The notes beneath the pieces are model-generated. The model was given only the letters and a program-made list of their open reading frames with translations, did not search any database and was not told the DNA's origin. From an uncultured Ruminococcus sp. (GTDB taxonomy: Bacteria > Bacillota > Clostridia > Oscillospirales > Ruminococcaceae): a stretch of DNA of 7,093 nucleotides. Location of the stretch: positions 1 to 7,093 of the forward strand of contig CAMCMW010000073.1 in assembly GCA_945876155.1 (NCBI GenBank). Reading direction: 5' to 3'. Each line of letters opens with the position of its first letter. Positions within the stretch are counted from its first letter, which is position 1. Below are positions 5,243-7,093 of this stretch, piece after piece. The translations under genes and the position numbers were made by a program.

Positions 5243-6079
5243 ATGGGAACACTTTATGTTGTGGGAACGCCAATCGGCAACATGGACGATATAACTTTCA
5301 GACAGCTTAAAACCCTTGAAGAAGTGGATTTTATCGCCGCTGAGGACACCCGTGTGACACTAAAGCTTTTGAACAGGTACGAGATAAAAAAGCCCCTTGT
5401 AAGCTATCACGGACACAGTACCGAAAGCTGTGCCGCCAATATTATTGCAAGAATACAAAGCGGTGAAAACGCCGCAATCGTAACCGACGCCGGAATGCCC
5501 TGCATCTCAGACCCGGGAGAGATACTGGTTAAAATGTGCGCTGAGCATGGGGTTGACGTTAAAGTAGTACCGGGACCCAGTGCCGTGGTTTCTGCCCTTG
5601 CCATTTCCGGACTGAACACTTCCCGCTTTGCCTTTGAGGGATTTTTGTCAGTGAACAAAAAGCAGAGGTATGACCACCTTGAAAGTATTCGCAGCGAAAC
5701 AAGAACGCTGATTTTCTACGAAGCCCCCCACAAGCTTATGAACACTCTACAGGACTTTCTGAAATATTTCGGGGACAGGAAAATTTCCCTTTGCCGTGAG
5801 CTTACCAAAATCCATGAAGAAGTCCTGAGAATGACCGTTTCTGAGGCGATAACATATTACCAGAGCAGAAATCCAAAAGGTGAATATGTACTGGTGGTTG
5901 AAGGGGCAAAGCCGGTATCGCTTTCAGATGAGTTCACCCTTGAAACCGCCGCACAGCTTGCAAGACAGTATGTCAGCGAGGGTGAAAAGCTGTCGGACGC
6001 CTGTAAAAAAGCCGCAAAGGAAACCGGGTTCTCCAAAAGCAATATTTATTCATTCATAATAAACGGGGAGGACGAATGA
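5243..6079 (+). CDS. rsmI: 16S rRNA (cytidine1402-2'-O)-methyltransferase RsmI
   Basis: RsmI adds the 2'-O-methyl group to C1402 in the decoding centre of 16S rRNA, using SAM and a tetrapyrrole-methylase fold. The 278-aa length is normal. Family motifs appear in order: GTLYVVGTPIGNMDDITFR (2-20), AEDTRVT (33-39), SYHGHST (54-60), VTDAGMPCISDPG (80-92), VPGPSA (109-114), FYEAPHK (158-164), CRELTKIHEE (174-183) and GEYVLVVEG (213-221). Residues after about 230 form the small C-terminal helical extension seen in many RsmI proteins. Start: GGAGG at 5228-5232 lies 10 bases from ATG 5243, and the protein then begins exactly at the conserved GTLYVV. The gene is last in its + strand run and faces the minus-strand M23 remnant, with the large inverted repeat between them. 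Confidence 0.96.
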   Translation: MGTLYVVGTPIGNMDDITFRQLKTLEEVDFIAAEDTRVTLKLLNRYEIKKPLVSYHGHSTESCAANIIARIQSGENAAIVTDAGMPCISDPGEILVKMCAEHGVDVKVVPGPSAVVSALAISGLNTSRFAFEGFLSVNKKQRYDHLESIRSETRTLIFYEAPHKLMNTLQDFLKYFGDRKISLCRELTKIHEEVLRMTVSEAITYYQSRNPKGEYVLVVEGAKPVSLSDEFTLETAAQLARQYVSEGEKLSDACKKAAKETGFSKSNIYSFIINGEDE

Positions 6080-6083
6080 GAAT

Positions 6084-6110
6084 AAAAAAATTGACTGCCA
6101 AAACAGTCAA
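6084..6110 (-). terminator. Minus-strand terminator-like hairpin directly behind rsmI
   Basis: TTGACTG (6091-6097) and CAGTCAA (6104-6110) form a perfect 7-bp stem with loop CCAAAA. On the minus strand the stem is followed by seven T residues (complement of A 6084-6090), the arrangement of an intrinsic terminator for leftward transcription. On the + strand no T-run follows. It would stop any minus-strand RNA that reads through the repeat region before it enters rsmI. Confidence 0.5.
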
Positions 6111-6361
6111 CTAAATCCGCCGAACGGCGAACCAAAAGTTTCGCCAGCCTTTTCAAAGGCTGCAGGGGTTCAAAGGGGACGGCGGTCCCCTTGTCGCTCA
6201 CCGCAGTGAGCGAAACTCCTTAAAGCCGCCGTTCTTTTCGCAAAAAAATACAAACTATAAGTCCATATCAAACTGACCAAAATCGTGATTACTCACGGCG
6301 GCTTTATTCATTTAAGAGCAAAACGATTTAAATGAACCGCCGTCAGGCGGCGAAAAACTAA
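6109..6361 (+). repeat. Left arm (copy A) of a giant interrupted inverted repeat with structured modules
   Basis: About 250 bp matching the reverse complement of 6441-6692, roughly four fifths identical by eye over the outer 125 bases and lower further in. The outer module (6109-6234) is a nested multi-stem structure described separately. The inner module holds the conserved block CTGACCAAAATCGTGATTA (6273-6291). It also has stem CGGCGG (6296-6301) with CCGCCG (6337-6342) and stem TTCATTTAA (6307-6315) with TTAAATGAA (6328-6336). A competing hairpin CCGCC-gtca-GGCGG (6337-6350) also exists. No coding frame is evident. I see no target-site duplication at its ends. Confidence 0.75.
6122..6234 (+). 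other. Predicted multi-branched RNA/cruciform fold, copy A
   Basis: GAACGGCG (6122-6129) pairs with CGCCGTTC (6227-6234), and inside it AGTTT (6137-6141) pairs with AAACT (6213-6217). Three hairpins lie within: CAGCCTTT/AAAGGCTG (6145-6162), GGGGAC/GTCCCC (6175-6190) and CGCTCAC/GTGAGCG with loop CGCA (6195-6212). The result is a closed stem carrying three arms, compatible with a small structured RNA or 3' UTR element. The second copy keeps the fold with compensatory changes. I do not recognise a named RNA family. Confidence 0.5.
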
Positions 6362-6400
6362 AGGCATGATTCAAGCTAAATCTAAGAATATAAACAAAAG

Positions 6401-6435
6401 ACCCTCTGAAAAATTCTCAGAGGGTTACTTTATTC
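6401..6435. terminator. Bidirectional terminator-like hairpin at the centre of the inverted repeat
   Basis: ACCCTCTGA (6401-6409) pairs with TCAGAGGGT (6417-6425) over a 7-base A/T loop. On + it is followed by TACTTTATT. On - it is followed by CTTTTGTTTATA, the better U-tract. It sits between convergent genes, so it can serve rsmI from the left and the M23 remnant from the right. The tracts are interrupted, so termination strength is uncertain. Confidence 0.65.
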
Positions 6436-6440
6436 GTATC

Positions 6441-6692
6441 GTTAGTTTTTTCTCGCCTGTCGGCGGTCATTCAATGCGCTGACGCTGTTGAATGACAAAG
6501 CCGCCGTGGATAATCATGATTTTGGTCAGCTGACTTGTGTCGTTAGTCTGACTGTTTTTTCATTCTTTGAACGGCGGCTTTAAAGAGTTTCGCCCTCTGC
6601 GGAGGGCGACAAGGGGGCTTTGCCCCCGTTGACCCCCACAGCCTTTGAAAAGGCTGGCGAAACTTTTATCTCGCCATTCGGCGGGGTTAGTT
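6441..6692 (-). repeat. Right arm (copy B) of the giant interrupted inverted repeat
   Basis: Inverted counterpart of 6109-6361. Its inner module has CGGCGG (6461-6466) with CCGCCG (6501-6506), and TCATTCAA (6467-6474) with TTGAATGA (6488-6495). Copy A has T-A pairs at a position where copy B has C-G, so the stem is preserved by paired changes. The conserved block around 6498-6529 mirrors 6273-6305. The hexamer GTTAGT (ACTAAC on -) stands at 6441, 6542 and 6686, marking the two edges and the module junction. No gene is evident on either strand. Confidence 0.75.
6569..6679 (-). other. Predicted multi-branched RNA/cruciform fold, copy B
   Basis: Read on the minus strand, GAATGGCG (6679-6672) closes with CGCCGTTC (6576-6569), one pair being G-U. 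Inside are AGTTT/AAACT, then CAGCCTTT/AAAGGCTG (6639-6656), GGGGGC/GCCCCC (6613-6627) and CGCCCTC/GAGGGCG (6591-6608, loop CGCA on -). Compared with copy A, the last two hairpins differ in sequence but keep pairing. The wobble pair exists only in the minus-strand reading (the + reading gives a C-A mismatch), which favours minus-strand RNA for this copy. Confidence 0.5.
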
Positions 6693-6695
6693 TAC

Positions 6696-6715
6696 TGCGG
6701 AACTTTTGGTTCGCA
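6696..6715. other. Small hairpin between the peptidase remnant and copy B
   Basis: TGCGGAAC (6696-6703) pairs with GTTCGCA (6709-6715) with one bulged G. On the minus strand the loop reads CAAAA, close to the CCAAAA loop of the hairpin at 6091-6110 that borders copy A. The two border hairpins have different stems but the same loop and the same distance to their arm, so they may be equivalent parts of the repeat. Confidence 0.4.
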
Positions 6716-6735
6716 AGCATAAATTGCACGTACTA

Positions 6736-7093
6736 TCAGCCTATAATTTCCAGTGGGTTCACATACGAACCGTTTTTCACCGTTTCAAAATGCAGATGTG
6801 ATTCCTCTGAGGTTTCAATATCAGCAGTCTCCCCTACTGCACCGATTTCCTCACCGCTTCCGACTTCCTGTCCCACCTGTACAGTAACACCCTCATTGAG
6901 ATTGCTGTATCTTGTGATAATACCGTTTCCGTGGTCGATAGTAACAGTGATACCCCAGAGAGGGTCGTTAGCAACCGCCGAAACTGATCACGAACAAGCC
7001 GAAAGCAAAACATCACCCAGTGACGCAGAAATATAAAAACAGAAATGTGTCTGCACAGCGACTGTGGAATTTGACTTCACAATCTCGCCGTTA
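6736..7093 (-). pseudogene. C-terminal fragment of a LytM/M23-family (SpoIIQ-like) peptidase with an in-frame TGA
   Basis: On the minus strand one frame from the window edge to TGA 6738-6736 reads as an M23 domain. In order come GEIVKS, QTH, ISASLGD, LSACS, then an in-frame TGA (6990-6988), then ANDPLWGITVTIDHGNG, RYSNL, VGQEVGSGEEIGAVGETA, SHLHFE and NGSYVNPLEIIG. M23 proteins cleave or bind peptidoglycan cross-links outside the membrane. The HLH zinc/catalytic motif is intact. YSNL has Asn where active LytM enzymes have His, as in SpoIIQ-like members, and the Asp expected four residues after QTH is Tyr. Lost ligand plus stop suggest a decayed gene, but see the finding on clustered changes, since a sequence error could give the same picture. 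The 5' part lies outside the window, so the signal or membrane anchor cannot be judged. Confidence 0.72.

Follow-up and report, generated by a model that had tools for sequence, protein, structure and literature searches.

The window, a 7,093-nucleotide stretch of DNA from an uncultured Ruminococcus sp. (genome G000, contig C73), carries at positions 6104 to 6697 a long interrupted inverted repeat of about 590 bp, downstream of a TP_methylase gene that ends at position 6079. A first-pass annotation of this DNA had described a giant interrupted inverted repeat here, and its presence was confirmed both by a mechanical search for complementary arms and by folding. As a single strand, positions 6085 to 6720 reach −343.9 kcal/mol against a shuffle mean of −176.9 kcal/mol (standard deviation, 7.2; z = −23.06), with 0 of 20 shuffles folding as low. 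No open reading frame of at least 60 amino acids lies inside 6104 to 6697; one frame, at 6620 to 7036, overlaps its right end. From the outside inward, each arm starts with a lead that holds a CCGCCGAACGGCG-type hairpin; next come a three-hairpin outer module of about 86 nt (module A), a body that TAAAGCCGCCGT/ACGGCGGCTTTA closes, and the inner hairpins, before the central hairpin is reached on the axis. The arm pairs from the mechanical search and the parts of the element are as follows.

6104-6178 and 6623-6697: arm pair, 83% complementary (inverted repeat I1)
6187-6234 and 6569-6616: arm pair, 90% complementary
6273-6305 and 6497-6529: arm pair, 91% complementary
6336-6375 and 6428-6467: arm pair, 75% complementary
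6401-6412 and 6414-6425: central hairpin pair, 92% complementary (inverted repeat I9)
6091-6133, plus strand: left outer end, with terminal-repeat remnant TTGACTGCCAAAACAGTCAACTA and lead with hairpin CCGCCGAACGGCG (sequence; alignment with the ends of other copies)
6134-6221, plus strand: left module A, three covarying hairpins (covariance model match at 6133-6221, plus strand, 93.2 bits; covariation)
6221-6306, plus strand: left body, closed by TAAAGCCGCCGT and ACGGCGGCTTTA (inverted repeat I7; alignment)
6307-6352, plus strand: left inner hairpins TTCATTTAA...TTAAATGAA and CCGCCGTCAGGCGGCG (sequence; kept in the aligned near-full copies)
6401-6425, no strand assigned: central hairpin, the axis of symmetry (inverted repeat I9; altered in copy L060)
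6454-6495, minus strand: right inner hairpins CGCCTGTCGGCG and TCATTCAA...TTGAATGA (sequence; alignment)
6498-6582, minus strand: right body, the inverted counterpart of 6221-6306 (inverted repeats I2 and I3)
6582-6668, minus strand: right module A, inverted (covariance model match at 6582-6668, minus strand, 96.8 bits)
6669-6697, minus strand: right outer lead with hairpin and decayed terminal repeat (inverted repeat I1; alignment)

The three hairpins that had been proposed for the outer module are real. Starting from 75 usable distinct sequences, of which 43 remained after near-duplicates were thinned, 42 copies of module A were aligned, with L103 left out on account of its diverging 3' end. 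In this alignment, in which hairpin 2 is poorly aligned, 96.2% of cells are paired and 17 of the 21 base pairs show double compensatory changes; when the partner is shifted by 1 to 3 columns, the paired cells fall to 34 to 52%. The covariation score was reached by 0 of 500 shuffles, which is not to be read as a probability because the structure was predicted from the same alignment used for the covariation test and the sequences are related. The covariation in these copies supports the earlier view that local base pairing is conserved. The 8-bp stem AGTTTCGC/GCGAAACT, described as closing the module, shares bases with hairpin 3, is rivaled by a GGAGT/ACTCC-type stem in predicted folds, and is absent from the consensus fold, which has the three hairpins only. 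The inner hairpins TTCATTTAA and TCATTCAA had also been counted as a covariation event between the arms; their difference is a left/right asymmetry fixed across the aligned copies and is therefore not an independent covariation. Pairing from arm to arm is not specially kept either. In the 10 of 14 copies that could be parsed (two of odd length), the likeness of arms within a copy was 0.68 versus 0.71 between copies, so that a copy's own two arms match no better than arms taken from different copies, and long-range pairing is not supported as the conserved feature.

A covariance model of module A (E ≤ 1e-4, strict filters, 38 candidates scored per genome) detected the module in 30 of the 119 genomes sampled from the family, which represent 29 of its 118 sampled genera. 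The statement that no named RNA family fits the layout held when the window and 22 element loci were compared with Rfam. In the window nothing scored above the cutoff; the match to MIR8562 reached 42.3 bits against a cutoff of 211 and falls on the palindrome, and this identity was rejected. Among the 22 loci no family matching the element scored above the cutoff, with asX2, RNAI, and STnc350 below it. SAM and TPP riboswitches near some element copies (L039:2635-2737, L186:991-1094, and L012:455-559) are ordinary neighbors.

Further copies, which the first-pass annotation had proposed to look for in related genomes, were found. The window's own genome gave 64 matches at 32 places, whole or partial (8 places of at least 500 bp, 14 of 200 to 499 bp, and 10 shorter). 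Twelve of these 32 places start within 11 bases of a contig start; the repeat therefore breaks the assembly, and the copy number in this genome is a lower bound. The element was matched in 16 of 61 genomes, its own included, and among the matches listed, near-full copies occur only in this genome and in the relatives G008 (MAG SUG375) and G001 (Ruminococcus sp. UBA1394). A core pattern of the element was found in five stretches of GTDB contigs, four from Oscillospiraceae MAG SUG375 and one from Ruminococcus sp. UBA1394. The alignment of near-full copies comprised 14 sequences (8 from G000, 5 from G008, and 1 from G001), some of which end at a contig end. Phage records gave no match to the window's element and plasmid records gave none to a type 1 element (see below); among open-license papers, no literature on such elements in Ruminococcus was found.

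A simpler element of roughly 300 bp, here called type 1, is likewise headed by module A and has the terminal inverted repeats CAGNNTGTMGAAAAA. We call the window's element type 2; it has module A at each end, in inverted orientation, and remnants of the terminal repeats. In type 1, module A is followed by a GCGCTCCGCAAGGGGTGAATT-like sequence and then by a terminal GGGGACGCCC...GGGCGTCCCC-like hairpin. The outer ends are inverted with respect to each other: CAGNNTGTCGAAAAAGT stands at the module A end, and the opposite end has CAGNNTGTAGAAAAACC in G009 and G002. DNA matching one type 1 element occurs in all 11 genus genomes, and CAGNNTGTCGAAAAAGT ends were found in 9 of the 11 with one mismatch allowed, at 57 places in G009 and 49 in G002 (control pattern, 0 to 2 per strand). 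Outside these ends, an identical hairpin stands on either side in direct orientation. From 47 end pairs listed, of which 46 could be scored and whose rows are partly redundant through overlapping end motifs, 34 had flanking direct repeats scoring above the 99th percentile of mismatched pairs.

Filtering for spacing of 200 to 420 bp, clean end letters, and a repeat score of at least 17 left 27 rows, or 26 distinct cases (L030 appearing twice), with 18 in G009, 4 in G002, and 1 each in G006, G007, G008, and G012. These are clear cases and do not give a rate, since a good repeat was the ground for keeping a row and a single genome supplied 18 of the 26. Their duplications measure 19 to 30 bp (mean, 25.1) and lie no more than 2 bp from the element ends; in every case they are centered within 1.5 bp of the middle of the hairpin. 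At least four A's occur in the eight bases before in 24 of 26 cases and at least four T's in the eight bases after in 20 of 26 (random 8-mers, 23%). By these A/T flanks and their place at gene ends, the duplicated hairpins appear to be terminator-like. Module A was present in all 25 clear cases scanned (the 26 minus L118, with L029 scanned through L172), and the covariance model did not detect it at four element-free sites of relatives (L244, L218, L215, and L238). At several type 1 pairs the duplication test failed or the two flanking hairpins differed (L108, L123, and L172 lie between different hairpins), and some of the pairs failing the test have decayed ends. The arrangement extends beyond the genus: locus L292 of G063, from another genus, shows these ends together with module A and a hairpin duplicated over 21 bp, and clear case L030 lies in a further genus. 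The terminal motif CAGNCTGYCGAAAAA had 10 exact matches in three of five genomes of other genera; the one in G063 is a clear case, and several others resemble coding sequence.

Occupied and empty sites were compared by probing 14 insertion sites with joined flanks, and five of these, along with the window's own locus, were read base by base. At the site of L109, G008 has two copies of TTCGCCGGTCAGAAGACCGGCGATT around the element, G001 has a single 25-bp hairpin, and G000 has a related single hairpin. The type 2 copy L039 of G000 is placed at the 3' base of a hairpin. This hairpin occurs once in G008, and a second copy cannot be recognized; at the site of type 2 copy L041, a terminator-like hairpin is present in both G008 and G001. 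At the sites of L060 and L055, G001 bears another repeat in the same place. At the window's own locus (6080-6735 versus L238:1740-2564), G001 and G008 carry a gene for a 274-amino-acid PF08543 kinase that is missing here, and the window copy is thus located where a stretch has been replaced or deleted. The neighboring minus-strand frame at 6736-7093, the translation of which we take to resemble the end of an M23 peptidase, holds an in-frame stop that was not seen in its G008 counterpart. At one site, G008 has a truncated type 2 element (L063) and G001 a type 1 element (L068, contig C18), and copies of both types (L057, L067, and L109) contain a small nested insert that has CCCCACAGTGTGGGG and TGTCAGCG.AGCTGACA-like hairpins. 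Other gene-free interiors, for example with GGGCGACCATTGGTCGCCC-type hairpins, stand beside a CAGNNTGTCGAAAAAGT-like end and hairpin at L106, L112, L125, and L129; given this shared end and hairpin, one mobility system may serve several repeat families.

The window repeat belongs to a gene-free repeat family in which the simpler members have a terminator-like hairpin copied on either side, and it is therefore likely a passenger mobile element. We read it as a two-headed form within that family and consider it probable that it is a nonautonomous mobile element moved in trans by a putative hairpin-cutting recombinase. Among the options first put forward, that of a palindromic nonautonomous element is thus the one favored by the evidence, namely, the many copies together with the inverted ends, hairpin duplications, and empty site of type 1. 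Like miniature inverted-repeat transposable elements (MITEs), the window's element is multicopy, short, and without coding capacity. Terminal inverted repeats are present in type 1 and as remnants only in type 2; target-site duplication was seen for type 1, and none was recovered cleanly for type 2. What is seen in type 1 is extended to type 2 on the basis of the shared lead, module A, the terminal-repeat remnants, and a few type 2 ends (L039, L051, L060, and L066) at which such a remnant stands beside a strong hairpin. As a group, the 25 type 2 ends are not richer in hairpins than controls (mean, −7.42 versus −7.44 kcal/mol; P = 0.96).

A partner enzyme carrying the same ends was not found in searches with NF033594, Cas1, and Y1 models or among loose end pairs, and no autonomous copy or duplicated flanks at other spacing appeared among 5,894 loose end pairs in the loci examined. 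The model NF033594, which we take to stand for IS1202, gave no match above the cutoff in any of 149 genomes; in G000, G001, G007, and G008 it gave no match of any score. The transposase-like matches below the cutoff were without element ends in the surrounding DNA examined, and an IS1202-like transposase was set aside as the partner. Cas1 and the Y1 transposase were likewise rejected, as the presence of neither follows copy number. Cas1 is absent from G002 and G009, the genomes richest in copies; Y1 matches occur in 5 of 11 genus genomes and in none of G009, G000, G007, and G008, a distribution that does not fit a REP/REPIN-RAYT system.

It has to be asked whether the element is instead kept for its RNA. 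A structured RNA at mRNA 3' ends, serving stability, processing, or bidirectional termination and spread to many genes because it is useful, would account for the covarying hairpins of module A and for sites at gene 3' ends, where divergent neighbors were found at only 2 of 35 type 1 and 0 of 14 type 2 sites with both neighbors called (the calls being stop-to-stop frames rather than curated genes, with the window's right-hand neighbor called wrongly). In 28 of 43 copies the sense strand also has a slight folding advantage (P = 0.04), a weak difference among related sequences on which we do not rely. However, by hand count at 17 type 1 sites between tandem genes, module A and the gene reading into it share a strand at 8 and lie on opposite strands at 9. 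This even orientation argues against a strand-specific mRNA role, and the proposal of a 3' untranslated region RNA as the main function is left unsupported. The sequence-independent duplication of hairpins and the empty site point to insertion, so that we regard an RNA function of this kind as decidedly improbable; the fold of module A may matter as DNA.

The compensatory changes could also have arisen without selection on structure, if replication switched templates between the two arms of DNA hairpins; the element would then be mobile and its hairpins functionless. Template switching is a known process in quasi-palindromes, and the unpaired cells amount to only 3.8%, so that intermediates are rare. 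However, the three-hairpin layout, the loops, and the flanking motifs are kept in 29 sampled genera, which suggests conserved use, and we hold this origin to be unlikely, if worth bearing in mind. A further explanation concerns the duplications, which might be the work of a fixed-stagger DDE transposase of the IS1202 type with target duplications long enough to cover hairpins by chance. The mean of 25 bp falls within the 16 to 28 bp given for the IS1202 group, for which the targets are described as unknown (PMC10132070). However, the length here varies from 19 to 30 bp and stays centered on the hairpin, the ends start with CAG as opposed to the 5'-TGT described for ISAjo2 (PMC10132070), and the NF033594 search gave the negative result above. 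A transposase of this type therefore seems improbable to us.

Our preferred reading, a nonautonomous element moved in trans, can be set beside several known systems. CRISPR repeat duplication by Cas1-Cas2 and the integration of casposons duplicate a palindromic target whole, as happens here, whereas G002 and G009 have no Cas1. Group IIC introns insert beside terminator stem-loops, which is a further likeness, but introns are not known to duplicate their target, and no Rfam intron family was found in the window or the 22 loci. The closest precedent that we have seen, by its description, is YPAL (RU-2) of Yersinia, a family of short palindromic gene-free repeats of about 168 bp with internal inverted repeats, target duplications of 3 to 26 bp, targets that span or adjoin dyad symmetry, and both filled and empty sites (PMC2229807). 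Type 1 resembles it in inserting at dyad symmetry with a variable, hairpin-centered duplication (19 to 30 bp). As far as that description goes, the present family appears set apart from YPAL by duplication that coincides exactly with one hairpin, the CAGNNTGTMGAAAAA terminal repeats, the three-hairpin module A, and the 590-bp two-headed form. Bacterial MITEs such as RUP, Correia/NEMIS, and ERIC are described as small, noncoding, and present in many copies, with terminal inverted repeats and target duplications (PMC2229807), all of which is also seen here; unlike those listed there, mostly with terminal TA motifs, the present family has a hairpin as its target and no known partner insertion sequence. 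The IS1202 group shares long target duplications but encodes a transposase and, in its ISAjo2 group, has TGT ends (PMC10132070), and the duplication in the present family follows the hairpin.

By the route that we propose, a putative recombinase acting in trans would cut at the two bases of a terminator-like hairpin, and the element would be inserted at the cut hairpin with one hairpin copy left on each side, the duplication presumably arising because the cuts at the two bases are staggered. Module A may have kept its hairpins because folded DNA, single-stranded or cruciform, is what the recombinase recognizes, and type 2 would move, or have moved, by the same route as type 1. The copying of the hairpin would leave a terminator stem to the genes on both sides and may in this way make insertion tolerable. 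We advance more tentatively, with somewhat less than even confidence, the fuller proposal that transposition here reads DNA shape: a putative recombinase would take any terminator hairpin regardless of its sequence, cut both stem bases, duplicate the hairpin, and seed the element between genes, the giant palindrome being the two-headed form with a folded recognition module at each end.

The length of a target duplication is usually set by the transposase. Duplications of 19 to 30 bp that match a hairpin point to a target that is chosen and measured by structure. The work also supplies a covariance model for module A, which was detected in roughly one in four of the genera sampled from this family. 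If borne out, the proposal would provide a sequence-independent, terminator-directed insertion system to study and would explain how repeats can accumulate at the gene ends of this family without breakage of genes.
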